Assembly: GCA_017618115.1 (NCBI GenBank)
Contig: JAFZUX010000018.1
Span: forward strand, 1-64,000
DNA from: Bacteroidales bacterium
GTDB lineage: Bacteria > Bacteroidota > Bacteroidia > Bacteroidales > UBA932
Length of the DNA stretch: 64,000 nucleotides
Reading direction: 5' to 3'
Below the pieces are notes generated by a model. The model did no database searches. It was not told the DNA's origin and was given only the letters and a program-made list of their open reading frames with translations. Each line of letters opens with the position of its first letter. Position 1 is the first letter of the stretch. Shown piece after piece: positions 13,689 through 38,795 of the stretch. Both the position numbers and the translations under genes were made by a program.

Positions 13689-14007
13689 GGACACTGGGAA
13701 CGAAAAGTGGGTGACACTGGGAACGAAAAGTGGGCAAAAGTGTTCCTGGTGTCCGGATTTTAGGGACACTGGGAACGAAAATGGGGTAAAAGTGTTTCTG
13801 GTGTCCGGGATATAGGGACACTGGGAACGGAAAGTGGGCAAAAGTGTTCCTGGTGTCCGGGATTTAGGGACACTGGGAACGAAAAGTGGGTGACACTGGG
13901 AACGGAAAGTGGGGTAAGGTGCTTGAGGTGTCCGGATTTTAGGGACACCTCGAGCAAAAAGGGGGGTAAAATGCTTGAGGTGTCCGGGATTTAGGGACAC
14001 CTCGAGC
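13689..14007. repeat. Palindromic REP-like array 1 (five 35-bp units)
   Basis: Full units lie at 13742-13776, 13794-13828, 13846-13880, 13921-13955 and 13973-14007. They are spaced by 17-bp linkers of the form rrAAAgtGGGGtAAAAgt, a 52-bp period; the 75-bp step before the fourth holds an extra 23-bp half unit. Units 1-3 are type A (GTTCCTGGTGTCC…GGGACACTGGGAAC); units 4-5 are type B (GCTTGAGGTGTCC…GGGACACCTCGAGC). Two further half units open the array (13689-13741). It lies between convergent genes ending at 13684 and 14090. On the plus strand the arm mismatches are mostly G·T. Confidence 0.92.
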
Positions 14008-14026
14008 AGTAAGGGCTTCTTGGAGT

Positions 14027-14062
14027 GTAGCTGTGAAGTGGAACGTAGCTGTGAAGTGGAAT
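14027..14062. repeat. 18-bp tandem duplication
   Basis: GTAGCTGTGAAGTGGAAC at 14027-14044 is followed by a copy differing only at its last base (14045-14062) and then a decayed third copy. It lies between array 1 and the end of the ferredoxin gene. Confidence 0.7.
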
Positions 14063-14089
14063 GTGGCTGCGGTTTGGTTGCGGCGGAGG

Positions 14090-15610
14090 TTACATTGGGG
14101 AGAGTTTGTGCTCCGGGTGGCCCTCTACGTAGATGGCTGGGATTGGGTTTACCGGGCAGGCGTTTTCACAGGCCCCGCAACCTATGCAGATCTCCTCATC
14201 CACAACCGGGAATCTTGGACTTGCTTCATCTGAAGGATTAACGGCAACAAGGGTGATCGCTCCTGTAGGACAGTGTCTTTCGCATCTTCCGCAACGTTTC
14301 TCTTTTGCTATCGGGATGCAAAGAGAGGCGTCCCAAACGGCATGTCCAATCTGGGTGAAAAACTTTTGAGAGAGGTCTATCTTTTTGATGGCTCCGGTTG
14401 GGCAGACGGTTGAGCATTTGTTGCATTCAGGTGCGCAGAAGCCTTTTTCAAAAGTTAGGTGTGGTTGCATCAGCGTCATGAGGTTGCCGGATGGTTTGAG
14501 CACCTTGTTCGGGCAGACGGCAACGCAGAGTTGGCAGGCGGTGCAGTGCTGCGTAAAGTGCTTAATGCCAATGGCTCCGGCTGGGACAATCTCTGTTTCT
14601 CGTCTGACGGTTTCTCTTTTGATGATAGGTGGAAGTTCTTTGTCTCTGGCTTTTGCTGCAACGGTGGCGGCCATCATTCCTGCAATTGCCAGGAAGGTTC
14701 TTCTTTCCATGCCTCCCTTTTCATTCACTTGATTATCAGAAGCTTTCTCTGCGGCACTATTATTCAAAGAGCCCTTTTCAACAGTGTTGTTCTTCACCTC
14801 AGACTTCATCTGAACAGTTACTTCTTCCACTGGAGCGGGGTAACGTTTTGTGGTGTAGGAGATTGCGCCCTTATGGCAGTTGGAGATGCAGTCTCCGCAC
14901 ATAACGCATCTGGAGTAATCTATCTTGTGCTCTTTGGTGTTAATACAGGAGGCTTTGCACTTCTTTCCGCAGAGTGTGCAGTTGACGCACTTGCTGGTGT
15001 TTATCACCGGTCTAAGGAGCGGGAATCTTGAGAAGAAACTCAGGATGGTTCCTACAGGGCAGATGGTGTTGCACCAGGTTCTGCCGTTTCTGAAGGCGAG
15101 AACTGCTATGATGATTAAGGTTACTGCGGCAACGGCAAAGGTTCCTATTGACCTGATATAAATCTCTTTATGAAACGCCCAAAGTGAAATTGGGGAGAAG
15201 ATATTCTGTGCTATTCTGCCGTATGCGCTGTATGGTGCAAGCAGTGCAACAAAGGAGTTAATGCCTGCAAGTAAGGCAATTACAAAGAGTGCCAGTACTG
15301 GATATCTTATCCAATTTTTAGGCTTGGAGTAGGTGTAACGGCTCTTTTTGAATCTTCTTCCGAGCCATCCAAAGATATCTTGCAGTATTCCAAGAGGACA
15401 GATTACGGAGCAGTAAATCCTTCCAAATATGAGTGTTACAACGAGCAATACTCCAACGATAATTAGGTTGAGGGCCAGTAGTGCAGGAAGGAACTGGACT
15501 TTGGCCATCCAACTGAAATAGGGGTGCAACACTCCTGTGAAGTCCAGAAACAGGAGGGTAATGCCAACAAAAAATATTGTTGCAAGAATTATTCTGACGG
15601 TCCTCAACAT
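14090..15610 (-). CDS. NapH/NapG-like membrane ferredoxin fusion
   Basis: This 506-residue iron-sulfur protein has an N-terminal half with about five membrane segments, two CxxxCP motifs (YCSVICPLG, WCNTICPVG) and two 4Fe-4S clusters (CVNCTLCGKKC, CVMCGDCISNC), as in NapH/CcoG-type quinol oxidoreductases. After a polar linker it restarts with ERRTFLAIAGMMAATVAA, like a NapG twin-arginine leader, followed by four more clusters (CTACQLCVAVC, CNKCSTVC, CGRCERHC, CIGCGACENAC). Electron transfer from quinol to a periplasmic acceptor is likely; the acceptor is unknown, as no nap or nrf genes are adjacent. Confidence 0.8.
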   Translation of the reverse strand: MLRTVRIILATIFFVGITLLFLDFTGVLHPYFSWMAKVQFLPALLALNLIIVGVLLVVTLIFGRIYCSVICPLGILQDIFGWLGRRFKKSRYTYSKPKNWIRYPVLALFVIALLAGINSFVALLAPYSAYGRIAQNIFSPISLWAFHKEIYIRSIGTFAVAAVTLIIIAVLAFRNGRTWCNTICPVGTILSFFSRFPLLRPVINTSKCVNCTLCGKKCKASCINTKEHKIDYSRCVMCGDCISNCHKGAISYTTKRYPAPVEEVTVQMKSEVKNNTVEKGSLNNSAAEKASDNQVNEKGGMERRTFLAIAGMMAATVAAKARDKELPPIIKRETVRRETEIVPAGAIGIKHFTQHCTACQLCVAVCPNKVLKPSGNLMTLMQPHLTFEKGFCAPECNKCSTVCPTGAIKKIDLSQKFFTQIGHAVWDASLCIPIAKEKRCGRCERHCPTGAITLVAVNPSDEASPRFPVVDEEICIGCGACENACPVNPIPAIYVEGHPEHKLSPM

Positions 15611-15881
15611 GTCTGTATTATTTGAATGAGCTTTCTAATTTCTTTGCAAACGTGCTCTGTCAATGTGTTTTTACAGATTGCTCCGCTCGCTTGCATTTTT
15701 GCCTTCTGTCTGCATCTTTCTGTGTGACAGCTACTTGTTTATTGTGTTTAATAGCTGTGCTTCTGTGTTTTACAGTTGAACCTCTGCGCTTGGCAGAACG
15801 AGCTGCGGGTGCTTGGCTGCGGTCTGCAGGTACGCAGCTTGGCAACGGTTGCGGCTGCGACGTTTGGCAACGGCGGGGCGG
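15611..15881. other. Intergenic region without recognised genes
   Basis: This 271-base gap lies between mltD and the ferredoxin fusion, both on the minus strand. The part nearest the mltD stop (about 15790-15880) is a G/C-rich, degenerate series of TTGGCAACGG- and GGCTGCG-type repeats. No exact TTTG/TAnnTTTG promoter was found for the downstream gene. Confidence 0.5.
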
Positions 15882-17504
15882 TTATTTCTTCACTTTGAGC
15901 TTCTTGCCGGCGTGGATCTTGGACTTGGTTGTGAGTCCGTTAATCTTAAGCAGGTCATTGAGGCTCATATTGTGCTTTTTAGCAATGCCGTAGAGCGTGT
16001 CTCCGGCCTTAACGGTGTAAGTGCCGTAGTTGCCGCCGGTTGCAGGGGTCTTACTTGAGCTGTTACTCTTTGCGGTGTTATGTGAAGAAGAGGATTCCTT
16101 GCGGTAGATGGCAAGTGTCTCTCCCGGTTTAACGCTGTTCTTTCCAAGACGGTTCCACTTCTTAAGCTGTGCGGTAGTAACTCCGTAACGCTTTGCTATA
16201 GAGGCCAATGTCTGTCCTTTGCGAACCTTGTGGTAGATGATTCTGTTGTCGCTCTGAGCCTCTTTGTACTTGTTGTAAACTATCGGGTTGAAGTAGATGG
16301 AATCTTTGTAACTGTAGATGGTTTTCTCGTTGTCTACAAACGGTACGGTGTAGTTGTAAGGGAGACGGAGAATCATACCCTGTGTGGTGCCCGGAATTAT
16401 ATCGTGAAGATACTGAGGGTTCAACTGGCGGATCTCATCCAAAGGAATACCTACAACCTCTGAAATCTGCTCAAAATGAAGGTTTTTGTGAATCATAAAG
16501 GTGTCTACGTGAGGCGGCATGCCAACCTTCTCAGGCACAATGTTGTAGTTCTTGTAGTACTTGAGAAGATAGAGGGCTCCGATGAATGAAGGGACATATC
16601 CGCGAGTCTCTTTTGGAAGGTATGGGTAGATGTCCCAGAACTCCTTGCTGCCGGCTCTTCTGATGGCTTTGTTCACATTGCCGGAACCGCAGTTGTATGA
16701 GGAGATTGCAAGGGCCCAGTCTCCGAAAATCTGATATGCGTCTCTGAGGTATCTTGCCGCTGCGTCACAACTCTTCTCCGGATCAAATCTCTCGTCTACG
16801 TAGGAGTCAATGTCCAGATCATACTGTCTTGCAGCGGAATAGATGAACTGCCACATTCCTTTGGCGTTGGCTCTGGAGACTGCGAACGGGTTGAGTGCAG
16901 ACTCTATGATGGCCATTGCGGAGAGTTCTTTTGGAAGTCCGTAACTGTCAAAGATGTTCTCAAAGATTGGGAGGTAGTAGGTGCTGAGTCCCAGGATGTT
17001 GGCAGCACGCTTAGGCATCTTCTCAGTGTATAGGATGATGAAGTTTCTGACAATGCTGTTGTACGGAACAGGAATGTAGGAGTTCATCTTTTTGATGTTC
17101 TCTATGTAAACTTCATCCGGAATGTCTGACTTGTAGTTTGCATTTTCAATGTCAGGAACATCTTCTCCTATGGTTTTTGCCATAGCCGCCTGTCTCTGTA
17201 AATACCAGAGGGTGAGGAGGGTATCCTGGTTCTCTCCCGGAACGGTCTCATAAAACTCAGGGTTTAAGAATCCGTTGGTGCCGGCGTTGATGGTATCTCC
17301 CACGGTTGTGGTATCTGATACTTCAATCTCCTCCCCGATAAGGTTTAAGAGAGAGTCAATGGTCTTTCTCAGTTGCTCGTTCTCTTTTAAAAGTTCCTTT
17401 TTACTCTTCTTGGAGTTTTGATTGGTATTTTGAGAAAATGCCGGTGTTGCAACTGCTGCGCAACCAAACACCACTAGCATTACGGCTAAAAATCTTGTCT
17501 TCAT
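15882..17504 (-). CDS. mltD: Membrane-bound lytic murein transglycosylase D-like, two LysM domains
   Basis: It cleaves peptidoglycan glycan strands. A signal peptide (to about residue 25) is followed by a K/E/L-rich coiled linker, then the SLT domain with the catalytic Glu at about 201 in AIIESALNPFAVS, GMWQFIYSAAR, and AISSYNCGSGNV. Two LysM domains follow (about 424-467 and 496-540; HKVRKGQTLASIAKRYG, YTVKAGDTLYGIAKKH). It follows the DUF5683 gene by 13 bases and closes the parA-parB-DUF5683-mltD run. Confidence 0.92.
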   Translation of the reverse strand: MKTRFLAVMLVVFGCAAVATPAFSQNTNQNSKKSKKELLKENEQLRKTIDSLLNLIGEEIEVSDTTTVGDTINAGTNGFLNPEFYETVPGENQDTLLTLWYLQRQAAMAKTIGEDVPDIENANYKSDIPDEVYIENIKKMNSYIPVPYNSIVRNFIILYTEKMPKRAANILGLSTYYLPIFENIFDSYGLPKELSAMAIIESALNPFAVSRANAKGMWQFIYSAARQYDLDIDSYVDERFDPEKSCDAAARYLRDAYQIFGDWALAISSYNCGSGNVNKAIRRAGSKEFWDIYPYLPKETRGYVPSFIGALYLLKYYKNYNIVPEKVGMPPHVDTFMIHKNLHFEQISEVVGIPLDEIRQLNPQYLHDIIPGTTQGMILRLPYNYTVPFVDNEKTIYSYKDSIYFNPIVYNKYKEAQSDNRIIYHKVRKGQTLASIAKRYGVTTAQLKKWNRLGKNSVKPGETLAIYRKESSSSHNTAKSNSSSKTPATGGNYGTYTVKAGDTLYGIAKKHNMSLNDLLKINGLTTKSKIHAGKKLKVKK

Positions 17505-17517
17505 ATCTCCTTTGTTT

Positions 17518-18453
17518 TTAGAAGGTTATGTTCATCTGCATTCCAAACTTGTTTGCCCGGTACATTGGATTGGATGTGTAAAATTTTCCATCCTGGATGA
17601 TAGGCTCTATAATGGCAGGTTGAACATTAAATGTTATATCGTCAGATATATCAAAGTTTGCAAAGTGCGCGAACACGTTGGCATCCACAACGTTAAGGAT
17701 GTAAATGAGCAGTGTTGCAACTACGGAGTAATCTCTGTTGCGTCTGTAATAGTCTCTGTACCAGATTAAATTCTCCTCCGTGAGGTGTCCTTCATACGTT
17801 CCCTCTCCCCACTCTTTGTAGTACTTGCGGAAACGTTTGTACTGTTTTTGGTTGAAGGCCCAGCAGTATCCGCTTATCATAAAGCCTCCGTAGTAGATTG
17901 GAATATGCCAGTAATCTCCGTTGTATGCCTGTCCCAATCCCGGAAGCAGTGCGGAGTAGATGGAGGCTCTTCCAGGCAGCGGTTTTTCTACGGACTTATA
18001 GCATGCCGCTCCGTCTAAAAGTTGTCCCCAGTACGTTGCTACTGCGCCCCAAATTAGGGCGTTACGCATATCCTTATCTTTGCTCAATCCGTTCTTTTTC
18101 CACTTGACGTTGTATGCAACCGCTCCGCCAATACATCCTCCCAACGCTCCGTAGATAACGGGAACTTTCCAGTAATCTCTGTTGTAAATCTGTCCCGCTC
18201 CCGGAACTACCATTGAACCGAAGAAGGAGTTGGAAACGGTCATTGAATCTTTGTGAGCCAGGGAGCGCACGAACCTCTTGATGGAGAAGGTCCTGATTGT
18301 GGTGTCCGTCTCATAGTAGGTTGTATCTTCCTGATAGAGTGTGGATTTCATTGTTCCGGCGGCATTGGAGTTTATGAACTGTGCAGATGCGGCTTTAGGC
18401 AGCACCAGCAGTGCCGTAACAATGATGAATATGAACTTTATCTTTGATCTCAC
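17518..18453 (-). CDS. DUF5683 envelope protein
   Basis: A signal peptide ends near SAQF (residue 26). The body has two copies of the motif PGxGQxYNxDYWxxPxxYG (VVPGAGQIYNRDYWKVPVIYG; LLPGLGQAYNGDYWHIPIYYG), each followed by hydrophobic segments, which define DUF5683. Function is unknown. It is conserved directly after parB in Bacteroidetes, suggesting a link between envelope and segregation, but that is only context. Confidence 0.85.
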   Translation of the reverse strand: MRSKIKFIFIIVTALLVLPKAASAQFINSNAAGTMKSTLYQEDTTYYETDTTIRTFSIKRFVRSLAHKDSMTVSNSFFGSMVVPGAGQIYNRDYWKVPVIYGALGGCIGGAVAYNVKWKKNGLSKDKDMRNALIWGAVATYWGQLLDGAACYKSVEKPLPGRASIYSALLPGLGQAYNGDYWHIPIYYGGFMISGYCWAFNQKQYKRFRKYYKEWGEGTYEGHLTEENLIWYRDYYRRNRDYSVVATLLIYILNVVDANVFAHFANFDISDDITFNVQPAIIEPIIQDGKFYTSNPMYRANKFGMQMNITF

Positions 18454-18464
18454 AATAAAATTCT

Positions 18465-23856: not shown

Positions 23857-24161
23857 TAGTAGGGGCGGCCGTATTCCTGATAATTGGAATATGCCATCCC
23901 ATTGTAATAAAGATGGAGTACTACTGGGGTAAAAAGAGCTGGTGGGTACTCCTCGTTGTCGGCCTTGCTTTGGCTGCAGCATCTCTCTTTGTTAACGGCC
24001 TGGTGGTCAGCACAATATTGGGAGCCTTTGCCTTCTCCTGCTTTTGGGGAATACTTGAGATCTTCTCCCAGGAAAAACGGGTTCTGAAGGGATGGTTCCC
24101 GGAAAACCCCGCCCGCCACGCCTACTACCAAACCCTCCGAGACCGCCACTCCGCTTCCTAA
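23838..24161 (+). CDS. DUF4491 membrane protein (107 aa)
   Basis: A small membrane protein with three hydrophobic segments (IIVGAAVFLIIGICHP, WWVLLVVGLALAAASLFV and VVSTILGAFAFSCFWGILE) and the C-terminal KGWFPENP motif typical of DUF4491. Function unknown. It is translationally coupled to the upstream genes through TAATG, in duplicate. The reading frame ends 2 bases before REP-like array 2. Confidence 0.85.
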   Translation: MNIYGIIVGAAVFLIIGICHPIVIKMEYYWGKKSWWVLLVVGLALAAASLFVNGLVVSTILGAFAFSCFWGILEIFSQEKRVLKGWFPENPARHAYYQTLRDRHSAS

Positions 24162-24163
24162 CC

Positions 24164-24375
24164 GTTTCCAGTGTCCCTGTTTTCCGGACACCGGGAACGT
24201 TTTACCCCCCTTTTCGTTTCCAGTGTCCCTAATTTCCGGACACCGGGAACACTTACCCCCACTTTCCGTTCCCATCGTCCCCTTTTCCCGGACATTGGGC
24301 ACACGTCCACCCTGTCCACCCAGTTTTTTCCGCCCCAAGTGCTCGAGGTGTCCGTAAATCCGGGACACCTCAAGC
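24164..24375. repeat. Palindromic REP-like array 2 (four 35-bp units)
   Basis: Units lie at 24164-24198, 24216-24250, 24268-24302 and 24341-24375. The first two linkers are 17 bp (TTTTACCCC.. orientation, reverse of arrays 1 and 3), a 52-bp period. Units 3 and 4 are separated by a 38-bp C/G-rich spacer (24303-24340) whose reverse complement also occurs in array 3. The last unit ends 22 bp from the stop of the RAYT gene. It lies between convergent genes ending at 24161 and 24398. Confidence 0.92.
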
Positions 24376-24397
24376 ACTTCTTCTCTCCTCAGATTTC

Positions 24398-25258
24398 TTA
24401 ATAGTCTTCCAGCATCCTACATACCTCTTCAAACTGCATTCCTGATATGCGGGATAGTTGATTAGGTTCAGAAGAGAATCTGTATCTAAGCTGTTTAAGA
24501 ATCTCAGACTTCTGAAGATTAGTAAGGTCTCCAAAAGTCTTTTTTCTGAAAAGAGAGACCGATAAATCTTGCATTGCGGAAACTATTAGTTGATCTTTGA
24601 ATGAAGGAGCCTCTTTTATAAGCTTGGCTTTTGATGAAGATTGAAGAAAATAGTTCATCCTCTTTGCTGACCGAAATATAGATTCTACCATCTTAACATC
24701 TATATATGAAGAAGGGAGAACAATACCCTCTAATACAGTATAATGTGGCGGAATAGGAACGCAACTGTGTAAAAGTTTGATACACTCTCTTTTACTTAGT
24801 TCTCCAATGATTCTACCCTTAGTCTTGTTTTCATTGAAGAAGAGCCCTCCGGTTCCCCATGGATATCCAGATGGGCTTAAACAAATATTTGCTGCCACGC
24901 TATTCATTTGAACGTATGCGATAGCTCTTTCCAAAGATTCGTCATTCAGATGTAATTCTCTGAAGTCCACCTTATTCTCTCTAAGGAACTCTTTTATAGA
25001 ATACTTTTTCGCATAATACTGAGAAAAACGTTTCTTAAAAGAGGTAATGAAATCTGTAGCATCATCCTTGGTTCCGCCAAGTACAAAATGTACATGGTTA
25101 GACATCAATATGAACGCCATTATTTGTACTGATGATGTTGCAGCAAGAACTGCTACTTGGTTCATTCCAACCTTGAAATCTTCTTCATCCCTAAACCAGA
25201 GTCGGTCTTCCAGATGCTCGGTAGTGACTAGCCAGTAAAAATTTTTCATACCCTTCAT
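24398..25258 (-). CDS. REP-associated tyrosine transposase (RAYT, IS200/IS605-like HUH)
   Basis: This 286-residue protein matches Y1 HUH transposases domesticated with REP repeats. The HUH motif is HVH at residues 55-57 in FILMSNHVHFVLGG; the catalytic Tyr is Y115 in AIAYVQMNSVAANI; the GYPWGTGG segment follows near 131. The C-terminal part, about residues 140-286, is longer than in minimal RAYTs and ends in a possible helix-turn-helix (NQLSRISGMQFEEVCRML). The gene is intact, AT-richer than its neighbours, and is flanked on its 3' side by array 2. Family members cut and rejoin single-stranded REP hairpins. No terminal inverted repeats or accessory tnpB gene were seen, consistent with a single-copy domesticated gene. 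Confidence 0.88.
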   Translation of the reverse strand: MKGMKNFYWLVTTEHLEDRLWFRDEEDFKVGMNQVAVLAATSSVQIMAFILMSNHVHFVLGGTKDDATDFITSFKKRFSQYYAKKYSIKEFLRENKVDFRELHLNDESLERAIAYVQMNSVAANICLSPSGYPWGTGGLFFNENKTKGRIIGELSKRECIKLLHSCVPIPPHYTVLEGIVLPSSYIDVKMVESIFRSAKRMNYFLQSSSKAKLIKEAPSFKDQLIVSAMQDLSVSLFRKKTFGDLTNLQKSEILKQLRYRFSSEPNQLSRISGMQFEEVCRMLEDY

Positions 25259-25361
25259 CTCTAATAAATGTTTTAATAATTCTTCTTCTCAAAATCTCGC
25301 TCCCCGCTACTAAAACTCTCATTCTCACGTCTCTCAAACAGTACACTACATATCTCATTCA

Positions 25362-25369
25362 CAAAGGTA
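25362..25369 (-). promoter_or_regulatory. Possible -7 element for the RAYT gene
   Basis: The minus strand reads TACCTTTG, an exact TAnnTTTG match, inside a small inverted repeat AAAGGTA…TACCTTT. The upstream TTTG is present (25389-25386) but the spacer is 16 rather than 19-20 bases. The leader would be about 100 bases. Confidence 0.3.
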
Positions 25370-25460
25370 GCAAAATACCTTTAACCAAATAGCACTAATT
25401 GAAATTTTTGGTGCTAAGCAACTGGACAAAGACCACAACGCCAAGAGAGCAGAGTGGTAA

Positions 25461-25622
25461 AAAGGGCGATTTTAGGTGCGAGGAGAGCCCTTCAATAGCT
25501 CCCCGCAGCAACCTAAAATTAGCCCTTTCTTTTAAATGTCTCGTCACTACTAAGTTAGCGTTAAAAAAAGACCGGTGATTGGGCTGCGGGGAGCTCGCCG
25601 GAAGGGCTCTCCTCGCGCCCAA
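25461..25622. repeat. Pair of related large palindromes
   Basis: Element 1 (about 25461-25531) has outer arms AAAGGGCGATTTTAGGT and ACCTAAAATTAGCCCTTT enclosing GCGAGGAGAGCCCTT..AGCTCCCCGC. Element 2 (25580-25622) has outer arms TTGGGC and GCCCAA enclosing GCGGGGAGCT..GAAGGGCTCTCCTCGC. The inner cores (25478-25509 and 25583-25616) are inverted copies of each other. The sequence is unrelated to the REP-like units. No protein-coding gene is credible here. Confidence 0.75.
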
Positions 25623-25648
25623 CCATCCTACTTTTTGACACATTGACC

Positions 25649-25835
25649 CGCGAATGCGCAGTAGATAGAGTGCCATTAGGTGCCACCAACAAAAAAGACA
25701 ATTATAAAGTTGCGAAGCAACCGGCCAAAGGCCGCATCGGCGCGAATGCGCCGTAGATACAGCGCCTCCGGGCGCCACACCCAGCCGAAGGCTGGTTTCA
25801 CCACGAAGTGGTGTAAAGACAGTGCCATTAGGCAC
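25649..25835. repeat. Chain of short perfect hairpins
   Basis: Seven perfect stem-loops follow each other: GTTGC-GAA-GCAAC (25709-25721), CGGCC-AAA-GGCCG (25722-25734), GGCGC-GAAT-GCGCC (25739-25752), GCGCC-TCCG-GGCGC (25762-25775), CCAGCC-GAA-GGCTGG (25781-25795), CACCAC-GAA-GTGGTG (25799-25813) and GTGCC-ATTA-GGCAC (25822-25835). A weaker one (CGC-GAAT-GCG) is at 25649-25658. A 30-base direct repeat GTGCCATTAGG..CCA.CAACAAAAAAGAC occurs at 25670-25699 and 25822-25851. Frames crossing this DNA look like chance frames. Confidence 0.8.
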
Positions 25836-25842
25836 CAGCAAC

Positions 25843-25868
25843 AAAAAAGACTCGCGATTGCGAGTCTT
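25843..25868 (-). terminator. Intrinsic terminator of tRNA-Phe
   Basis: On the minus strand AAGACTCGC and GCGAGTCTT (25868-25847) form a perfect 9-bp stem with a 4-base loop, followed by a T-run (25848-25843). It starts 8 bases after the tRNA 3' end. Confidence 0.85.
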
Positions 25869-25876
25869 CTTTTGCT

Positions 25877-25952
25877 TGGTGGTGCCTCCGGGAGTCGAAC
25901 CAGGGACACAAGGATTTTCAGTCCTTTGCTCTACCAGCTGAGCTAAGGCACC
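25877..25952 (-). tRNA. tRNA-Phe (anticodon GAA)
   Basis: Acceptor arms GGTGCCT/AGGCACC with discriminator A and encoded CCA, D arm TAGCTCAGCTGGTAGAGC, anticodon arm AGGACTGAAAATCCT with GAA, and T arm CCCTGGTTCGACTCCCGG. The length is 76 with CCA. All stems pair. Confidence 0.97.
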
Positions 25953-25966
25953 AGCAAATGGGAGTG

Positions 25967-25997
25967 CAAATATATGGATTATTTTTAATTTTGCAAC
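25967..25997 (-). promoter_or_regulatory. Promoter of tRNA-Phe
   Basis: On the minus strand GTTG (25997-25994), a 19-base spacer, TATATTTG (25974-25967, exact). The predicted start is about 8 bases before the mature tRNA. It overlaps the immediate upstream region of the divergent priA gene, which has its own TAATTTTG at 25986-25993. Confidence 0.6.
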
Positions 25998-25998
25998 A

Positions 25999-28395
25999 AT
26001 GGTTGGGGAATTTAAATATGCATCCGTGATTCTCCATGTGAAATTCTCACAGGAGCTGTTCTACATACTGCCTGACAGTGAGGTAACTGCGGGTTGTTGG
26101 GTTAAGGTGCAGCTAGCCACAAAGCACTACTATGGGGTGGTTTACAGGGTACTGACAAAAGCTGAGCTGCCTCATTATGCACAAAGCATTGAGATAAAAC
26201 CTATAGAGGAGGTTGCAGATGACCGCCAGAAGGTGGAGATAACTGAGATTAAGTTTTGGGAGATTGTTGCAAAGTATTGGCTCTGCACTGTTGGAGAGGT
26301 ATTTAAGGCGGCCTATCCTATCCAGACCATAAAACAAGAGGAGGTAAAAGCGCACAAGACTCCTCAGGACCTTTTCTCCCAAATCAATGAGGAGCTCTCA
26401 AAGACTAGAGAGGAGGAGATGGCTGAAACTCAAGAGAAGAGATATCGGGAAGTTGAGAGGGAGATAGAGGCCAATGGAGGTAAGGAAGATGTGGAGAAGA
26501 AAGAGGAGAAGAAAACTCTTAAATGTGAAAAGGCTGTTGGAAAGAGGAGAGTTCAATGTGAAAAAGTGGTGCTGTCAGAGGCACAGGAGGAGGCTTATCG
26601 GGAGATAGAAAAACAGATTGAAAATAAGACTGTTCTGCTTGAGGGGGTGACTGGAAGCGGAAAGACGGAAATTTATATCAACCTGATAGATAAAGAATTA
26701 GAGCGGGGTAAGGATGTGCTCTACATGGTTCCTGAGATATCTATGAGCACCCAGTTGGAGGAGCGCCTTAAGAAGCATTACGGGGCAAGACTCTTTACTT
26801 TCCACTCCGGGCAGACCGCGGCGAAGAAGAAACTCATCAGAGAGATTCTCTCGTTCAAAGGTCCTGAGAAAAAGCCGGTTGTAGTGTTGGGTACTCGTTC
26901 TTCCGTATTCCTTCCTTTCAATAATCTGGGACTCATCGTAATAGATGAGGAGCACGACACAAGTTACAAGCAGGAAGATCCTGCACCAAGATATAACGGC
27001 AGAGACGCAGCTCTCTTTTTGGCTCAGATTCACAAGGCTAAAGTGCTGATGGGCAGCGCAACTCCATCTTTTGAAACTCTCTTTAACTGCATAAGCAGAA
27101 AGTTTGCAAGAGTACTTTTGAAGGAAAAATACTTCACATCTCCGGCACCGGAAGTTACCGTAATTGATACCATCTGGACTCGCAAGAGCCATCAGATGAA
27201 GGGCAGTTTCTCCCAACAGCTTATTAATCTGATAGAGAATACTTTAGCAGATAAGAAACAGGTACTTGTGTTCCGCAATATTCGTTCCTTTGCACCTGTA
27301 GTGCAGTGTGCAGACTGCGGAGAAATTATCAAGTGTTCGCACTGCAATGTCCCTATGAGTTATCATCGTTATGACAACACCTTAAGGTGCCATTACTGTG
27401 AAACTAAGTGGAATATGGCGCTTGCGGAGTGTCCCAAGTGTAAGGGTAAAAACCTGGAGTTCAGAGGTGCGGGAACCGAGCGCATTGAGGAGGAACTTAA
27501 GGAACTCTTCCCTACTGCAAACATTGCACGGTATGACAGAGATATCTCACTGACCCGCAAAACAGCGGAGAAGGTGCTTAAGCAATTCTCTGAGGGAGAG
27601 ACGGATATACTTGTGGGAACTCAGATGATAAGCAAAGGTTTTGACTTCAAAAACCTTACGCTTGTGGCCGTTATTCAGGCAGATACCATTCTCTCTCAGC
27701 AAGATTTCCGTGCAGATGAAAAGTCTATGCAACTCTTCATCCAACTTCTTGGAAGAAGCGGAAGAAGAGACGGGAAGGGACATCTGGTAATTCAGACTAA
27801 CCAGAAGGACCATCCTGTGATTCAGGAGATTGTGGCAATGGCTCGCAGAATGGAGGAACAGCAGAGAGAGGCCTTTGCCAGACGGCAGAAGTCTGTGGAG
27901 TTGGGTGGGGATAGCAATCAGCAGACCTCTGGTAACGATAATGAAAGTGTCGGTAATCAGACTAATGCTGGAATAGAGATTGTTGAACATCAAAAGCAGG
28001 TGGCAGGGAAAGAGAACTTTGAGGATGTGCAAAAGACGAATGTTGAGTTGAAGGTGGAGAACAGTACAGATATGATGGCGGAAAGAAGTATGTACTGCTT
28101 CCCTCCATTTGTAAGGATGGTGAACATCACCCTTAAACACAAGAACTTACACAAGCTGAGCAGCATTGCAATGTCTCTTTCACACGTTCTCAAAAACACC
28201 AAGGCATACAATGCAGTTGAGGTAAGTGGCCCGTACACTCCTAGGATAGAGAAGGTTAGGGACGAGTATCAAATATGCTTCACGATAAAGTTTGCGCGTG
28301 ACAAGTTCCTCTCTCAAAACAAGGAGGGATTAAGAGGAGTCATTGAAGCGCTCAAGCTTCCAGTCCAGGTCAACATAGACGTTGACCCTTCATAA
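25999..28395 (+). CDS. priA: Primosomal protein N' (replication restart helicase PriA)
   Basis: A 3'-5' helicase that restarts collapsed forks. The N-terminal 3'-DNA-binding domain (1-110) is followed by a charged linker (about 115-195). Walker A is EGVTGSGKTE near 216 and the DEEH box near 315. Four zinc CxxC pairs lie in about 437-480 (CADCGEIIKCSHCN, CHYCE, CPKC), then the motif V/VI region SKGFDFKN and LGRSGRRDGKG. An acidic, Q/N-rich insertion of about 70 residues (about 625-695) separates the helicase core from the C-terminal domain. Divergent from tRNA-Phe; it ends 31 bp before REP-like array 3. Confidence 0.94.
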   Translation: MVGEFKYASVILHVKFSQELFYILPDSEVTAGCWVKVQLATKHYYGVVYRVLTKAELPHYAQSIEIKPIEEVADDRQKVEITEIKFWEIVAKYWLCTVGEVFKAAYPIQTIKQEEVKAHKTPQDLFSQINEELSKTREEEMAETQEKRYREVEREIEANGGKEDVEKKEEKKTLKCEKAVGKRRVQCEKVVLSEAQEEAYREIEKQIENKTVLLEGVTGSGKTEIYINLIDKELERGKDVLYMVPEISMSTQLEERLKKHYGARLFTFHSGQTAAKKKLIREILSFKGPEKKPVVVLGTRSSVFLPFNNLGLIVIDEEHDTSYKQEDPAPRYNGRDAALFLAQIHKAKVLMGSATPSFETLFNCISRKFARVLLKEKYFTSPAPEVTVIDTIWTRKSHQMKGSFSQQLINLIENTLADKKQVLVFRNIRSFAPVVQCADCGEIIKCSHCNVPMSYHRYDNTLRCHYCETKWNMALAECPKCKGKNLEFRGAGTERIEEELKELFPTANIARYDRDISLTRKTAEKVLKQFSEGETDILVGTQMISKGFDFKNLTLVAVIQADTILSQQDFRADEKSMQLFIQLLGRSGRRDGKGHLVIQTNQKDHPVIQEIVAMARRMEEQQREAFARRQKSVELGGDSNQQTSGNDNESVGNQTNAGIEIVEHQKQVAGKENFEDVQKTNVELKVENSTDMMAERSMYCFPPFVRMVNITLKHKNLHKLSSIAMSLSHVLKNTKAYNAVEVSGPYTPRIEKVRDEYQICFTIKFARDKFLSQNKEGLRGVIEALKLPVQVNIDVDPS

Positions 28396-28426
28396 CGTAT
28401 AATCCTCTAATGATAATTGTTTAAGT

Positions 28427-28689
28427 GCTTGAGGTGTCCCGGATTTACGGACACCTCGAGCAAAAAGGGGGGTAAAACGCTTGAGGTGTCCGGTTTTTGG
28501 GGACACCTCAAGCACTTGGGGCGGAAATACTGGGTGGACAGGGTGGACGTGTGCCCAATGTCCGGAAAAAGGGGACGATGGGAACGGATAGTGGGGGTAA
28601 GTGTTCCTGGTGTCCGGGAAAAGGGGACGATGGGAACGGAAAGTGGGGGAAAGTGTGCCCAATGTCCGGAAATTAGGGACACCGGGAAC
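28427..28689. repeat. Palindromic REP-like array 3 (five 35-bp units)
   Basis: Units lie at 28427-28461, 28479-28513, 28551-28585, 28603-28637 and 28655-28689. Linkers are 17 bp except between units 2 and 3, where a 37-bp G-rich spacer (28514-28550) matches the 38-bp spacer of array 2 in reverse. Unit 2 is a perfect 14-bp-arm palindrome. Unit 3 (GTGCCCAATGTCC…GGGACGATGGGAAC) differs from its array-2 counterpart at one base. The array lies between convergent priA and the PIG-L gene, whose stop is 2 bp away. Confidence 0.92.
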
Positions 28690-28691
28690 AG

Positions 28692-29531
28692 TTAGAGCTC
28701 CACAAAGGAGGGGGAGAGGTGGGCGGTGAGGTGGATGAAGCCTTCTGCGTAGGCGCATCCGTACTCCATGCCGCGGAACTTCTCCATTGGGATATGCCAG
28801 TCTGAGAGGAGTTCCGGCATTCCCTGGCTCTCATGGCAGAGGCAGGCCTTGTGCTTCTTCTCTGCAACGGCGGATATGTCTACGTAATCTGTTGGGAGGA
28901 ACTTCATACTCTGCATTCCGGTCATTGCTTCTGCATAGAAGAGATTGAAGTTGTAGCCGCTCTGCCTCCAGGCATCATAGACGAGGATTGAGCAGATGCG
29001 ATGGTCTCTGTGAGTGTCTATAGGCCAGTGGGTTATGACAATCTCAGGATTCTCTTTCTTGATGACGGCGAGCATCTCCGCATATCTTTCTTTGGTGATT
29101 TCTGTTGCTCCATCTACCTGTGACATAAATTGATATCTGGCACCGGTAACTTTGCAGGCGGCAATGCATTCTTTCTCTCTGATAGCTGCGGCCTGGTCTC
29201 CGCTCATTCCTTTTATGCCTGCTTCACCTCTGGTAAGATAGACGCAGAGGACATCCCATCCGGCTTCCAGAAGACGGATCATGGTGCCACCTGCAATGGT
29301 CTCAGGATCATCCGGATGCGCGCCTATGATGAGGGCCTTTCTCCTACTGTTTCTAGGTTTTGAACCGAACTCCCCTGCGGAGTTTTTGGAATTGGAATTT
29401 CCAAATGCAGAATTCAAGGAATTAGGACCTCCGGAGGCGGCGTTGAGGATGGATGGAAGTGAGAGGGCTGCTGCTGAGGCTGCTACGCCTGCAGATGCCT
29501 TAATCCAATTTCTTCTTGAAACTTTTTTCAT
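28692..29531 (-). CDS. Secreted PIG-L/LmbE-family deacetylase
   Basis: A zinc-dependent N-acetylglucosaminyl-type deacetylase. The ATG at 29531 gives a twin-arginine leader (MKKVSRRNWIKASAGVAASAAAL); a 35-residue N/S/G-rich linker follows. The fold has IIGAHPDDPETIAGG (about 69-83) and ITHWPIDTHRDHR, the expected metal ligands. Export by Tat suggests a folded metalloenzyme in the periplasm. It follows the symporter and racemase genes closely (10- and 10-base gaps), so the three may act on related amino-compounds; the substrate is unknown. Confidence 0.85.
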   Translation of the reverse strand: MKKVSRRNWIKASAGVAASAAALSLPSILNAASGGPNSLNSAFGNSNSKNSAGEFGSKPRNSRRKALIIGAHPDDPETIAGGTMIRLLEAGWDVLCVYLTRGEAGIKGMSGDQAAAIREKECIAACKVTGARYQFMSQVDGATEITKERYAEMLAVIKKENPEIVITHWPIDTHRDHRICSILVYDAWRQSGYNFNLFYAEAMTGMQSMKFLPTDYVDISAVAEKKHKACLCHESQGMPELLSDWHIPMEKFRGMEYGCAYAEGFIHLTAHLSPSFVEL

Positions 29532-33126: not shown

Positions 33127-33131
33127 ATTTG
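33101..33131 (+). promoter_or_regulatory. Promoter of trxB
   Basis: TTTA (33101-33104), a 19-base spacer and TAAATTTG (33124-33131, exact). It lies across the end of the Gate-protein gene; predicted start near 33138. Confidence 0.5.
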
Positions 33132-33155
33132 CCGTCTGGCACATTTTGAAGTGTT

Positions 33156-34082: not shown

Positions 34083-34089
34083 ACTTAAA

Positions 34090-35250
34090 ATGAAGAAAGT
34101 TAAAGTATTTGCACTATTTGCGCTGACACTTATTTCACTCCAGGGATGCAAGAGTTACTATGAGTCCCTCTTCAGAAGCAACGATATCTACGTCCGCTTC
34201 AGAGGTGCTCAAGATTACTATAACAGAGGGAAATACCACAAGGCTGCAGCATTGTTTGAGAGTATGATTCTGCTTGCTCAGGGTACGGAGTTGGAGGACA
34301 GTGTTCAGTACTTTAACGCAATGAGTAACTACCGTTACGGAGATTACATTACAGCGGAGCAAAACTTCAGCAAATTCCTGGAAGTGTTCCCTCGCAGTCA
34401 GTTTGCCGAGGAGGCAAGATTCCTGAGAATCAAATGCTTATATGAGGGCACGTACAGATGGGAGTTGGACCAGGTTCCTACCCAAAAGGCTATGGCAATC
34501 ATTGCTGAGTTTATGTATGACAACCCTGAGAGCCAGTACTATCCAATCTGTAAGGCTATGGTGGATGAGTTCTCTGAAAGGCTTGACCGTAAGGCTTATG
34601 AGAGCGCCAAGATGTACTACACCATGGATGATTACAAGGCTGCTCACTATGCACTCAAGGGTGTTTTGAGAGACAATTCAGATAACCGTTACAGAGAGCA
34701 GATCCTCTATTACACTGCAATGTCCTCTTACAAGTACGCTCTTAACAGTGTGAAAGAGAAGCAGAAAGAGAGGTACATGACATTCATCGACGATTACTAC
34801 AACTTCATTGGAGAGTATCCTACCGTTCCGGAGAGACGCCAGTTGGACAATATGTTCATCAGGGCTCAGAAGTCTGTAGGTCTTAAGACAGGTTTGGATT
34901 CCGCTCAGATCGCAGCGGCTGCAGAACTGGCTAAGAGCGAGGGTGTTACTCCGCGTACATCTCAGAAGATTAAGGCAGACCGCCGCAACACTCGCAGAGC
35001 TATAAAGGAGGCTAAGAAGGCTGTTCAGGAGGCTGAGAGCCGCAACGAGGTTGCTCGTAAACTTGAGGAGCAGAAGAACTTGAGTCAGAAGAGAGCAGAT
35101 CGCAGAAAGGAGAAGGCAGAGAGAAAGGAGGCCTTGAGAATCTACAAAGAGGCTAAGGCTAAGCAAGATGCAGAGAAGAAGGCTAAGGAAGAGGCAGAAA
35201 AGGGAGATAAAAAGTCTAAGAAAGAGAAGAAGAAAAAATCTAAAGATTAA
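34090..35250 (+). CDS. bamD: Outer-membrane assembly lipoprotein BamD
   Basis: A component of the BAM complex. The ATG at 34090 gives a lipoprotein signal with Cys at 20 (LQGC). TPR repeats fill about residues 38-270 (AQDYYNRGKYHKAAALFE, AMSNYRYGDYITAEQNFSKF). Residues about 300-386 form a lysine/glutamate/alanine-rich helical tail ending in KKKSKD, longer than in proteobacterial BamD; Bacteroidetes BamD proteins commonly have such tails. bamA is at 45905. Confidence 0.92.
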   Translation: MKKVKVFALFALTLISLQGCKSYYESLFRSNDIYVRFRGAQDYYNRGKYHKAAALFESMILLAQGTELEDSVQYFNAMSNYRYGDYITAEQNFSKFLEVFPRSQFAEEARFLRIKCLYEGTYRWELDQVPTQKAMAIIAEFMYDNPESQYYPICKAMVDEFSERLDRKAYESAKMYYTMDDYKAAHYALKGVLRDNSDNRYREQILYYTAMSSYKYALNSVKEKQKERYMTFIDDYYNFIGEYPTVPERRQLDNMFIRAQKSVGLKTGLDSAQIAAAAELAKSEGVTPRTSQKIKADRRNTRRAIKEAKKAVQEAESRNEVARKLEEQKNLSQKRADRRKEKAERKEALRIYKEAKAKQDAEKKAKEEAEKGDKKSKKEKKKKSKD

Positions 35251-35258
35251 CTAATTAT

Positions 35259-35585
35259 ATGGAAGAGAAGAAAGTTGTAAAAGTTCCGGACAACACAGTT
35301 ACCAGAGATGTTATCAAACTCTCTGAGCCTACCGGAAACATTTATGAATCAGTGGTTATCATTGCCAAGAGAGCAAATCAGATAGCAGCAGAGCTTAAGA
35401 AAGAGCTCTCAGAGAAGTTGGAGGAGTTCTCTCAGAGCAACGTAGTGGATACATTGGAAGAGACTTATGAGAACAGGGAGCAGATAGAGATTTCCCGTCA
35501 CTACGAGAAACTTCCAAAACCAACATTAACAGCAATTAAGGAGTTCCAGGACGGGGAGATTTACTGGCGCAAGATTGACTCTTAG
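35259..35585 (+). CDS. rpoZ: RNA polymerase omega subunit, Bacteroidetes type
   Basis: A 108-residue protein with GNIYESVVIIAKRANQIA at about 27-44, the conserved Rpb6/omega helix, followed by a Bacteroidetes-specific extension. Its position between bamD and recN is conserved in the order. coaBC, often found between rpoZ and recN in relatives, is absent here. The stop TAG overlaps the recN GTG start by one base. Confidence 0.88.
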   Translation: MEEKKVVKVPDNTVTRDVIKLSEPTGNIYESVVIIAKRANQIAAELKKELSEKLEEFSQSNVVDTLEETYENREQIEISRHYEKLPKPTLTAIKEFQDGEIYWRKIDS

Positions 35586-37201
35586 TGCTTAGTAAACTGT
35601 CCATAAAGAATTATACTCTCATTGAGAGTTTGGAACTTGAGTTCCCGGATCACTTGGTGATCATAACAGGGGAGACAGGTGCCGGCAAGTCTATTTTGCT
35701 AGGCGCCGTTTCTCTTTTATTGGGGGGTAAAGCTGAGGCCTCTCAACTCAAGGACCAATCAAAAAACTGTGTGGTGGAGGCTATCTTCCAAACCGCTGAG
35801 GGTGAGAAGATTTTAAGGAGGGTGATTGCTCCTTCCATGCGCTCCAGATTTTTTATAGATGATGAGCCTGTAAGTGTTTCCCAGATGGAGGAGACTGCCT
35901 CCTCACTTTTGGACATTCACGCCCAGCACAACCATCTTTTGCTCTACAACAAAGAGTTTCAACTCAGTGTGTTGGACGGTTACTCCTCCAACGCATCTCT
36001 GCTCTCCTCATACAGAGAAGAGTATGAAAAGGTAAGGGAGTTGAAAGGGGAACTATCGGGAGTAGAAAAAAAGATAGAGAGGGCAAAAGAGGAGAGTGCA
36101 TTGAGAGAAAAAGAGCTGAGGCTTTTGCAGAGTGCGTCATTGCAAGAAGGTCAGACTGAGGCGCTTGAGAAGGAACAACTGCAGTTGGAGAATGCTCAGC
36201 AGATAATAGAAAGTTGCAGCGAGGCCACCAATCTGCTGGAGGGCGGAGAGGGGTCCGTTACTCAAAATATCAAGGAGGCAATACGCCTTATTGAAAAGTC
36301 TTCTAACTTTGCGCCCGAATTTGAGGAGTTGGCAAAAAGATTGGAGAGTTGCAGGATTGAGTGCAAGGATGTTGCTTCAGATATAGACAGAGTGCTCAGT
36401 TCCACCTCTTTGTCTCCGGAGAGACTTGCTATGGTGGAGGAGAAGTTGAGTGCTATTTACTCACTGCTGAAGAGATTCAATCTTACTACTGAGAGCGAAC
36501 TGATTGCGCTTAGAGATAAGTTGGAGGAGGAGAGCCAATCTACGGAGATGCTTGAAGAGTTGAAGCAGAAGTTAGAGACTGATATTAAAGAACATACAAA
36601 GGAGAGAAATGCTCTTGCAGCAAAACTTTCCAAGAGGAGAAAAGAGGGGGCGGTTAAACTGGAGAACCTGCTTACTAAGGAGATTCGTTCATTGGAGATG
36701 CCGGTTGCAGTGTTTAAGGCTGAGGTTGAGGATGCTGAGGATTACACCCCAAGCGGCGCAGACAAAGTCCGGTTCCTCTTCTCTGCAAACGGTGATGAGA
36801 AACTAGTTGAACTCCAGAAGGTTGCAAGCGGCGGAGAACTCTCCAGAATTATGCTCTGCATAAAGAAAGTGATGGCGGGTTACAGAGGAATGCCTACGTT
36901 GTTCTTTGATGAGATAGATGTGGGAGTTTCCGGCAGCATAGCAGATAAAGTGGGACAGCTTTTGGATGCAATGGGGGAGAAGATGCAGATTCTTGCAATT
37001 ACCCATCTTCCGCAAGTGGCATCAAAAGGGAAGGCTCACCTGCTGGTTACCAAGGAGTTGGGGAAACAGGGCGCACGTTCCGCCTTTACGTTTATTAAAG
37101 GAAAGGATAGAGTGATGGAGATTGCCCGCCTGCTCAGCGGTGAGAAGACCACTCCACAGGCGGTTGCCAACGCCAAGGTGCTCCTGCAAGCAGCAAAGTA
37201 G
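35585..37201 (+). CDS. recN: DNA repair protein RecN
   Basis: An SMC-like ATPase for double-strand break repair. Walker A is GETGAGKS (29-36); the coiled coil fills about 150-380; the signature LVELQKVASGGELSRIMLCIK and Walker B TLFFDEIDVGVSG follow. The start is GTG at 35585 within TAGTG, coupled to rpoZ. Downstream is a low-complexity tail. Confidence 0.94.
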   Translation: MLSKLSIKNYTLIESLELEFPDHLVIITGETGAGKSILLGAVSLLLGGKAEASQLKDQSKNCVVEAIFQTAEGEKILRRVIAPSMRSRFFIDDEPVSVSQMEETASSLLDIHAQHNHLLLYNKEFQLSVLDGYSSNASLLSSYREEYEKVRELKGELSGVEKKIERAKEESALREKELRLLQSASLQEGQTEALEKEQLQLENAQQIIESCSEATNLLEGGEGSVTQNIKEAIRLIEKSSNFAPEFEELAKRLESCRIECKDVASDIDRVLSSTSLSPERLAMVEEKLSAIYSLLKRFNLTTESELIALRDKLEEESQSTEMLEELKQKLETDIKEHTKERNALAAKLSKRRKEGAVKLENLLTKEIRSLEMPVAVFKAEVEDAEDYTPSGADKVRFLFSANGDEKLVELQKVASGGELSRIMLCIKKVMAGYRGMPTLFFDEIDVGVSGSIADKVGQLLDAMGEKMQILAITHLPQVASKGKAHLLVTKELGKQGARSAFTFIKGKDRVMEIARLLSGEKTTPQAVANAKVLLQAAK

Positions 37202-37475
37202 CAGCGGTAGCAAACAGCAAGTAGCAACAAAGCCGGCAGCAGCAAAAGCAAAGTAGCAGCAGCGGCAAAGCAAACAGCAACAAGCCGGCAGCAGCAAAAC
37301 AGTAGCTGCATAAAGCAAGCAAAAAGCGGCAGCAACAAAAGCAGCGCTCTGGGAATAGAAGTTAGAAGTTAAGCAAGCAATGTAACGCTCAGGAAGAGAG
37401 AACGTAGTAGCAGAGAGCAAGCAACACAGTGACTTGGAAGACAGATAGTTGAAATAAAAATAAATAATAGATATT
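37202..37475. repeat. Low-complexity AGCAGCAAA-type repeat tail after recN
   Basis: The 274 bases between recN and nagB begin with degenerate AGCAGCAAAGC repeats on the plus strand. They include two near copies, about 60 bp apart, of an approximately 24-bp segment AGCAACAAAGCCGGCAGCAG.. (near 37220 and 37280). Frames on the minus strand here are poly-L/C/A and look spurious. The last ~40 bases are AT-rich and lead to nagB; no exact promoter was seen. Confidence 0.6.
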
Positions 37476-38279
37476 ATGAGATTAATTATTCAAAAGTCTT
37501 ATGCAGACATGTCCAAATGGGCAGCATCTCTGATTGTTAAGAGAATAAACGAGTTCAACCCAACACCTGAGCGTCCTTTCGTTCTGGGTCTTCCTACAGG
37601 TTCAACTCCTATTGGAACTTACAAAGAGTTGGTTCGTTACTACAATGAGGGCAAGATCTCCTTTAAGAATGTTGTAACCTTCAATATGGATGAGTATGTT
37701 GGAATTCCGGAGAACCATCCTGAGAGTTATCACACCTTTATGAGAGAGAACTTCTTCAGTCACATAGACATTCCGGCAGAGAATATCAACATTCTCAACG
37801 GTAATGCAGCAGACCTCATTAAGGAGTGTGAAAATTACGAGGCAAAGATTAAGTCTTACGGCGGAATCAAACTCTTTATGGGCGGTATTGGTCCGGACGG
37901 CCACATTGCATTCAACGAGCCTGGTTCTTCTCTGACTTCCAGAACAAGACTTAAATATCTGACTACCGATACTATCATTGCTAACTCAAGATTCTTTAAC
38001 AATGACATCAACTTGGTTCCTAAGACCGCTCTGACAGTGGGAGTTGGAACAATTATGGATGCTGAGGAGGTAATGATTCTTGTTAACGGTCACAACAAGG
38101 CAAGAGCTCTCCGCCACGCTATTGAGGAGGGTATCAGCCAGATGTGGACGGTAAGCGTTCTTCAGATGCACAAGAAGGGCATCATTGTTTGCGATGACGC
38201 TGCCACCGTTGAACTGAAGGTAGGAACCGTTAACTACTTCAAGGACATAGAGAAACGTGAACTCCTCAGCGAGGAGTAA
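37476..38279 (+). CDS. nagB: Glucosamine-6-phosphate deaminase
   Basis: It converts glucosamine-6-phosphate to fructose-6-phosphate and ammonia. [12 protein letters not shown], the active-site [26 protein letters not shown] and the [10 protein letters not shown] allosteric-site region are intact; 267 residues is normal. It allows use of amino sugars from mucin or peptidoglycan. The stop codon lies inside the first copy of a tandem repeat that continues downstream. Confidence 0.95.
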
Positions 38280-38412
38280 CAGCCTTGCACTCCGAGCAAG
38301 CAGTAACAGCTTGGAACTCTTGAATAAGGAGTAACAGCTTGCCGCTGAACAAAAAGTAACAACGTTTGAACTCTTGAATAAGGAGTAACAGCTTGCCGCT
38401 GAACAAGAAGTA
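38254..38412 (+). repeat. Tandem copies of the nagB 3' end
   Basis: The segment GAACTC…AGGAGTAACAGC..TTG, which includes the nagB stop codon, recurs three times: at the nagB end (from about 38260), from 38314 and from 38368. The last two copies are nearly identical over about 50 bp with a 54-bp period. They encode nothing. Confidence 0.75.
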
Positions 38413-38434
38413 ACTGCGTTTGCTTGAAACAGAA

Positions 38435-38470
38435 AGGGATGGCCATCAGTGGTCATCCCTATTTTGTTTT
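38435..38470 (+). terminator. Intrinsic terminator downstream of nagB
   Basis: AGGGATGGCCA and TGGTCATCCCT (38435-38445/38450-38460) pair with one G·T, followed by ATTTTGTTTT. A close relative of this hairpin is at 54052-54080. Confidence 0.75.
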
Positions 38471-38496
38471 ACTCACTTCCGCCACCAAGCCATCTG

Positions 38497-38608
38497 GCCG
38501 TGCAACGTTAAATGTTAATAATCAGGTATTTAAGCAATTACCTCTCCCCAATATCTTTACTAGGCAAAGCGGTAAAACGCACATTATCAGACACATCCGT
38601 TGCACGGC
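38497..38608. repeat. Perfect 11-bp inverted repeat around ~90 bp
   Basis: GCCGTGCAACG at 38497-38507 and CGTTGCACGGC at 38598-38608. The interior is AT-rich and non-coding. It could be the base of a structured RNA or a decayed element; it lies between the nagB terminator and array 4. Confidence 0.5.
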
Positions 38609-38629
38609 ATTTATCAATACTCCCCAAGT

Positions 38630-38795
38630 GCTTGAGGTGTCCGTTTTTTGGGGACACCTCGAGCGTTTTACCCCACTTTTTGCTTGAGGTGTCCGTAATT
38701 TAGGGACACCTCGAGCACTTTTGCGGGGTTAGCGTTCCCGGTGTCCCTGAATTCCGGACACTGGGCACACTTTAGCGGGGTTTTCGTTCCCGGGG
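38630..38795. repeat. Palindromic REP-like array 4 (three full units and a fragment)
   Basis: Full units lie at 38630-38664, 38682-38716 and 38734-38768 with 17-bp linkers (52-bp period). A fourth unit starts at 38786 (GTTCCCGG) and is cut after about 10 bp, just before the stop of the LysM gene at 38800. The first two units are type B, the third type A. Linker orientation is partly mixed. The flanking genes (nagB and the LysM gene) are convergent. Confidence 0.9.

Follow-up and report, generated by a model that had tools for sequence, protein, structure and literature searches.

Paired hairpins of fixed geometry that adjoin, and probably belong to, a one-tyrosine transposase in Bacteroidales

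REP-RAYT systems are widespread bacterial repeats. The recognition of a REP by its own RAYT has been worked out mainly for the GTAG type (see PMC6006769). In Pseudomonas fluorescens SBW25, REPINs possess invariant 16-mer ends that overlap REPs, with 71 bp between the first residues of the 16-mers in the GI REPINs (Bertels and Rainey 2011, PMC3116915). The RAYTs of Bacteroidetes assigned to group 5 of Bertels correspond to TnpA_Y1 subclass 2.6 (PMC6006769). The GTAG- and CGTC-tagged REPs include the Rickettsia RPEs, and in PMC3733652 the CGTC REPs are reported without a dedicated transposase.

The hairpins described here occur in Bacteroidales, of which many were sampled from the stomachs of ruminants; they stand next to a one-tyrosine enzyme and are probably its own elements. 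As in the SBW25 REPIN/RAYT system, their doublets can be folded as one long hairpin (the folds predicted here are one long hairpin or two short ones), a different doublet family stands beside each RAYT, and tandem clusters and compensatory changes occur. Unlike in the SBW25 REPINs, the arms change between lineages, each half of a doublet is a full 37-nt palindrome, most doublets found have a pitch of 51/52, and the linker is conserved. With subclass 2.6 the system shares the phylum, the occurrence at the gene of hairpins that have no GT[AG]G tag, and copies elsewhere in the genome. However, subclass 2.6 has the tyrosine motif YIH[QN]NP and a median HuH-Y distance of 82, whereas the enzymes studied here have YV[QH]MN[S/C/P] and 58 residues, and because of these two differences the system is not filed under that subclass; the passages of PMC6006769 consulted make no mention of a fixed pitch or linker for it. 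Like the GTAG and CGTC REPs of PMC3733652, the hairpins are short palindromes that often lie between convergent genes, form dimers and in some cases are located inside genes, but they carry no conserved GTAG or CGTC at the hairpin foot, and ACGTC occurs within some arms. Since the GTAG tag is absent, they are not filed under the GTAG REPs. A literature search that covered listings and text passages returned no description of the 51/52 pitch or of this linker.

Arrays and hairpin units in the window genome

The window is the stretch of 64,000 nt analysed here, positions 1-64,000 of contig JAFZUX010000018.1 of Bacteroidales bacterium GCA_017618115.1 (UBA932), a genome labelled G000. The sequence-only reading had reported four arrays with 17 full palindromes, and the recount (5 + 4 + 5 + 3) bears this out. 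Array 1 (13741..14008, + strand) contains 5 full units, 3 of the GTTCC type and 2 of the GCTTGAGG type, together with truncated half-units at 13689-13739 and about 13890-13915. Array 2 (24163..24376, - strand) consists of 4 hairpin units, array 3 (28426..28690, + strand) of 5 units, and array 4 (38629..38769, + strand) of 3 units followed by a truncated unit that extends to about 38795. Within array 3, a segment of 178 nt (28518-28695) repeats part of array 2 in inverted orientation, with 85% complementarity. All four arrays are located between convergent ORFs (ORFs of at least 100 aa). In a search of positions 13000-39000 against Rfam at gathering scores, no family was found at the arrays, the sole match being a tRNA gene (25880-25952, - strand) that sits between the transposase gene RAYT-A and the next long ORF (25999-28395). 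The window also holds tandem repeats of about 54-55 bp at 38258-38418, extending across the 3' end of ORF 37476-38279 into the sequence that follows, a dense short repeat at 39915-40100 within ORF 38800-40659 (- strand) that, judged by its codons, is probably asparagine-rich, and a 60-nt repeat present three times (72-80% alike) at 3779-4150 within ORF 2369-4885.

The spacings between neighbouring units are 52, 52, 75 and 52 in array 1, 52, 52 and 73 in array 2, 52, 72, 52 and 52 in array 3, and 52 and 52 in array 4. The proposed period of 52 bp is therefore exact in 10 of 13 cases, while its division into a 35-bp unit and a 17-bp linker is better replaced by one into a 37-nt palindrome (YG...CR) and a 15-nt linker. 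One such linker (13957..13971, + strand) is A-rich, has a G-run and is A-rich again, joining two 37-nt hairpins. The conservation of the linker, also claimed earlier, was confirmed and could be generalised to doublets from other RAYT loci. The distinction of two arm types is borne out as well, although the GTTCC type is not uniform, its cores being GGTGTCC, CATCGTCC and CAATGTCC.

The unit is not restricted to the window. Among the G000 loci brought in by BLAST, GTCC-N6-10-GGAC occurs at 44 places, of which two with another spacing (window 60084 and C8:9202) were left out, and the remaining 42 fit one frame of 37 nt that starts with TG or CG, ends with CA or CG and has 14 nominal pairs and a 9-nt loop, leaving a linker of 15 nt at pitch 52. 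The exact pattern YG-N8-GTCC-N9-GGAC-N8-CR is found at 42 places in the whole G000 assembly, compared to 0 for the reversed control, and further copies are present in relatives. A few of these 42 units may be counted twice, because the contig ends C24 and C26, with 3 units each, look like one array. Of 30 neighbour spacings below 150 bp in the assembly, 20 are 52 and 3 are 51. The units lie mostly outside genes, 34 of 42 being outside the two genes with in-frame units and 8 inside them (an aroE-like and a LuxE-like gene), and at least one other array, on contig C8, lies between ORFs of one strand. Short palindromes that are dispersed in many copies (42 places plus 12 of a second pattern described below) and mostly extragenic are what defines REPs, and the earlier suggestion of a REP/BIME-like family remains the best reading, all the more as the palindromes are linked to a RAYT-like gene that had been missed.

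Single-strand DNA folds of three chosen window doublets gave z values of -9.2 to -10.5, with 0 of 200 shuffles as good in each case; two were folded as one long hairpin and one as two hairpins. In the 38 distinct rows among the 42 units, 91.4% of the pair cells are standard, compared to 84.5% after shuffling and 28-48% after a shift of the partner by 1-3 columns. Covariation scores 0.273 versus 0.180 for the shuffles. Three of five covariation measures beat the shuffles, the two that do not being pairs changed on both sides (6 versus 6.1) and further pair types (11 versus 13.4). The invariance of GTCC and GGAC is no evidence here, because both were part of the selecting pattern.

RAYT genes and the doublets beside them

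RAYT-A (24398..25258, - strand) encodes a 286-aa HUH/Y1 transposase-like protein with NHVH at residues 54-57 and Tyr115 in YVQMNS. Its ORF is one of three places in G000 returned by a search for the IS200-type transposase family. The protein scores 22.0-23.6 bits against Pfam Y1_Tnp (cut-off 23) and 47.6 bits (E 1.5e-12) against NCBIfam REP_Tyr_transpos (NF047646), below the cut-off of 80. All 17 proteins tested match the latter model at E <= 0.001, RAYT-A with the best E-value, and 0 of 17 reach the equivalog cut-off of 80. Residues H55, H57, Y115 and N119 are invariant in 17 of 17 aligned homologues, and H57 and Y115 are 58 residues apart, so that RAYT-A has an HUH motif and one downstream, putatively catalytic tyrosine. 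The YxxxNP motif given for class 2 in PMC6006769 is not present in RAYT-A, which has YVQMNS; the motif ends in NP in 2 of the 17 aligned homologues (L043 and L045), the others having S or C. Neither RAYT-A nor its profile returned a meaningful match when searched against PDB sequences, and no RAYT homologues were found in plasmid and phage collections at E 1e-5.

A distance of 21 bp separates the stop of RAYT-A from the first unit of array 2, the arrangement of a REP-flanked gene, or REPtron. A paralogue on contig C19 of G000, RAYT-B, is 51% identical to RAYT-A and is directly followed by a palindrome type of its own, GTGCAAGGTG... (GTGTGCAAGGTGGTGC...GGGACACCTTGCACAC). At up to 2 mismatches this palindrome occurs at 12 places in G000 (the one at RAYT-B included), 13 in G030 and 10 in G019, and neighbouring places in G000 are 52 apart, the length of 37 nt being part of the search pattern. 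The third IS200-type transposase-like gene of G000 (253 aa, C15:81153-81482, L030) is distant from both RAYT-A and RAYT-B.

The pitch recurs at related RAYT loci. From 288 such loci, the best 80 were sampled, ranked with the 17-relative alignment and taken from named genomes; their titles read Bacteroidales or Bacteroidia, once Prevotellaceae, and many come from rumen, omasum, reticulum or abomasum. Some of them recur from the 16 close loci in which the pitch was first seen, and some genomes contribute more than one. At a direct-repeat threshold of at least 24/36, a repeat is found in 51 of 79 downstream flanks among these best 80, 49 of 79 at a shift of 51 or 52, leaving 30 of 79 without a repeat of that pitch at this threshold. 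Of 80 upstream flanks, 35 pass and 28 have a shift of 51/52, compared to 18 of 792 and 3 of 792, respectively, for control windows taken at these loci. With a loose hairpin criterion the separation is partial: 58 of 79 RAYT 3' ends pass it, compared to 204 of 575 other ORF ends. Some genomes (G067, G084, G070 and others) contain up to 12 RAYT homologues each, mostly about 30% identical. At the loci of such distant paralogues the 51 pitch was seen in 1 of the 14 read (L057); another of the 14, L054, has a 39-bp repeat.

From these loci 78 doublets were obtained (one of pitch 53), of which 66 have 37-nt centred units at pitch 51/52 and 65 are distinct. Because the doublet centres had been chosen to maximise pairing, the procedure was rerun after shuffling the columns in a way that preserves the direct repeat; of 1540 such nulls, 28 reached their own observed two-hairpin score, and mean pairing fell from 17.5 to 9.1 of 22. 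Arm positions 3-10 form Watson-Crick pairs in 35-62 of 65 doublets versus about 20-29 with shuffled partners. With one count for each of the two units, G occupies position 2 in 63 and 64 of the 65 doublets, and C occupies position 36 in 60 and 63. The 14-nt linkers (n=43) lean strongly to W4-N-GGCC-N-W4, with 31-36 of 43 in the GGCC columns, and the 15-nt linkers (n=22) to W4-N-S-run-W4. The outer flanks lean to AAG (31, 37 and 41 of 65) and CTT (32, 35 and 25 of 65), and the 5' foot of the hairpin thus leans to AAG followed by YG rather than to GT[AG]G. YG, CR and the linker, for which no selection had been made, are among the most constant parts of the doublet. The arm letters differ widely but pair, and the features that stay constant are the pitch, the YG/CR ends and a linker resembling W4-GGCC-W4.

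The outer arms of a doublet pair with one another about as well as, or better than, the arms within a unit, and the inner arms pair less well at several positions. The doublets thereby resemble REPINs, whose inverted ends allow one long hairpin, as do the two of three window doublets that fold in this manner. Among the pairs whose two sides both change from one unit to the other, 50 of 122 form in cis and 45 of 122 in trans, counts that favour neither two hairpins nor one long hairpin.

Arm sequence follows RAYT lineage. Over 52 loci, RAYT identity and arm identity give a Mantel rho of 0.187 (2 of 2000 permutations as high), a correlation that is weak overall and carried mostly by close pairs: mean arm identity is 0.78-1.0 for the 24 RAYT pairs above 65% identity and 0.50 for the 984 pairs at 45-55%. 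The cleanest case of co-evolution is the genome pair G000/G030. Here, RAYT-B is identical at 285 of 289 residues and its arms are unchanged, whereas RAYT-A is 87% identical and its adjoining arms have changed on both sides, from GGTGTCC..GGACAC to ATCGTCC..GGACGTT. The RAYT-A stretch (24161-25535) has 79.7% DNA identity versus 90.8% and 86.9% in the stretches on either side, although another nearby gene (14117-15610) is lower still at 69.4%. An arm type from G003 was found in 3 of 14 genomes searched (G003, G037 and G028) at up to 3 mismatches.

Distribution and dynamics in relatives

More than 4 copies of the GTCC/GGAC-core pattern are present in 7 of 148 relatives (43 in G019, 42 in G000, 38 in G028, 30 in G030, 16 in G052, 15 in G026 and 6 in G051), counted as exact matches for which the reversed control has a maximum of 6, reached in one of the 148 genomes. 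Six of the seven possess a close RAYT relative; in the 73% complete G026, with 15 copies, no RAYT match was found. The pattern occurs 0-4 times in each of at least 10 further genomes that possess a close RAYT, their arms being without that core or outside the search.

Many arrays are common to two or three of the close species G000, G030 and G019 and differ in unit number and arms; movement is therefore slow or old. At 10604..10613 of the window, where G000 has no array, the equivalent place holds 4 units in G030 and 4 in G019. For array 4, the 3 units in G000 compare to at least 5 in G019, which have another arm type, and the 346 nt read in G030 contain no unit. Array 3, with 5 units in G000, is represented by 1 unit in the 301 nt read in G030. 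Array 1, likewise with 5, has 3 in G019, and the 700 nt read in G030 are free of units. At the sites read, neither a target duplication nor a clean insertion boundary with a defined target was apparent. The aroE-like gene contains 4 in-frame units in G000 and 1 in G019, and the corresponding loci of nine more relatives (L151-L159) have no unit. The LuxE-like gene contains 4 in G000, 4 in G030 (2 of which have ATCGTCC/GGACGTT arms) and 3 in G019, and eight further loci (L172-L179) are likewise without units. Separate from the hairpins, the aroE-like gene of G000 and G019 (L149 and L150) carries another in-frame tandem repeat, whose unit encodes about SCSTKTETN. Furthermore, the RAYT-A segment (window 24399-28506; L146 9441-13504) is inverted in G019 with hairpin arrays at both breakpoints, likely by recombination between the inverted arrays 2 and 3.

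Candidate mechanism and competing explanations

We consider it very likely that these hairpins are REP-type doublets that the linked HUH transposase binds, cuts and copies in trans, the arms co-evolving with the enzyme while the geometry is kept. The working unit would be the doublet, i.e. two 37-nt imperfect hairpins with a 14/15-nt linker at pitch 51/52 and an AAG...CTT leaning outside. The single-tyrosine, RAYT/TnpA_REP-like enzyme most likely binds the hairpins as single-stranded DNA, and it may cut and rejoin at the doublet edges or the linker and so copy or replace doublets in trans. Arrays may then grow by slippage, recombination or repeated insertion, and each transposase would co-evolve with its own arm sequence under retention of the geometry. 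The geometry, the linkage, the dispersal, the pairing of changing arms, their lineage specificity and the presence or absence of arrays at orthologous sites are observed, whereas binding, cutting and movement are inferred. Movement by single-strand excision and insertion is proposed by analogy to the known biochemistry of E. coli TnpA_REP and IS200/IS605 (summarised in PMC6006769).

The hairpins could instead serve to terminate transcription or to stabilise mRNA 3' ends where genes converge, with the transposase as an accidental neighbour, and both the position of all four window arrays and the TTTT that follows many hairpins on one strand agree with such a role. A terminator, however, has no need of a fixed 51/52 pitch, a conserved linker or lineage-specific arms. 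In addition, the 8 of 42 copies in coding frames, the array on C8 (at least one) between same-strand ORFs and the recurrence of the RAYT linkage at 49 of 79 loci among the best 80 of 288 argue against this role, which we regard as improbable. If the repeats were passive and spread solely through recombination and gene conversion, it would be hard to explain why doublets stand beside RAYT genes in many genomes and why arm types track two RAYTs in one genome pair. Such enzyme-free spread would account for the many orthologous arrays whose differences are chiefly in the arms and the number of units, as well as for the inversion in G019 of a segment flanked by inverted arrays, but is in our judgement very improbable. 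The inverted pair formed by the AAG and CTT leanings of the outer flanks recalls non-autonomous MITEs of a DDE transposon; as the sites read show no apparent target duplication and the conserved part consists of the internal hairpins and linker instead, this origin is hardly credible. A CRISPR array was rejected, since the linkers are alike and 14/15 nt long and are not unique spacers, and an attC reading was considered and rejected as well.

Returning to RAYT-driven doublets, the transposase might read geometry over letters, using a two-hairpin ruler of 37-14/15-37, the W4-GGCC-W4-like linker and the YG/CR feet, a tentative extension that we lean against rather than towards. If it were true, the arms would be free to diversify with the enzyme and each lineage would therefore keep a private REP type; newly arriving doublets could insert into existing ones, or replace them, at fixed sites that include reading frames. 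We read the system as one of the REP/REPIN-RAYT kind, set apart by the lack of a GTAG tag, the different tyrosine motif and the strict ruler. The analysis provides a definite architecture for a little-described branch of Bacteroidales, with dozens of natural enzyme-hairpin pairs, including two from a single genome, that share one geometry while their letters differ, so that the recognition code can be tested by swapping arms, linker and pitch.
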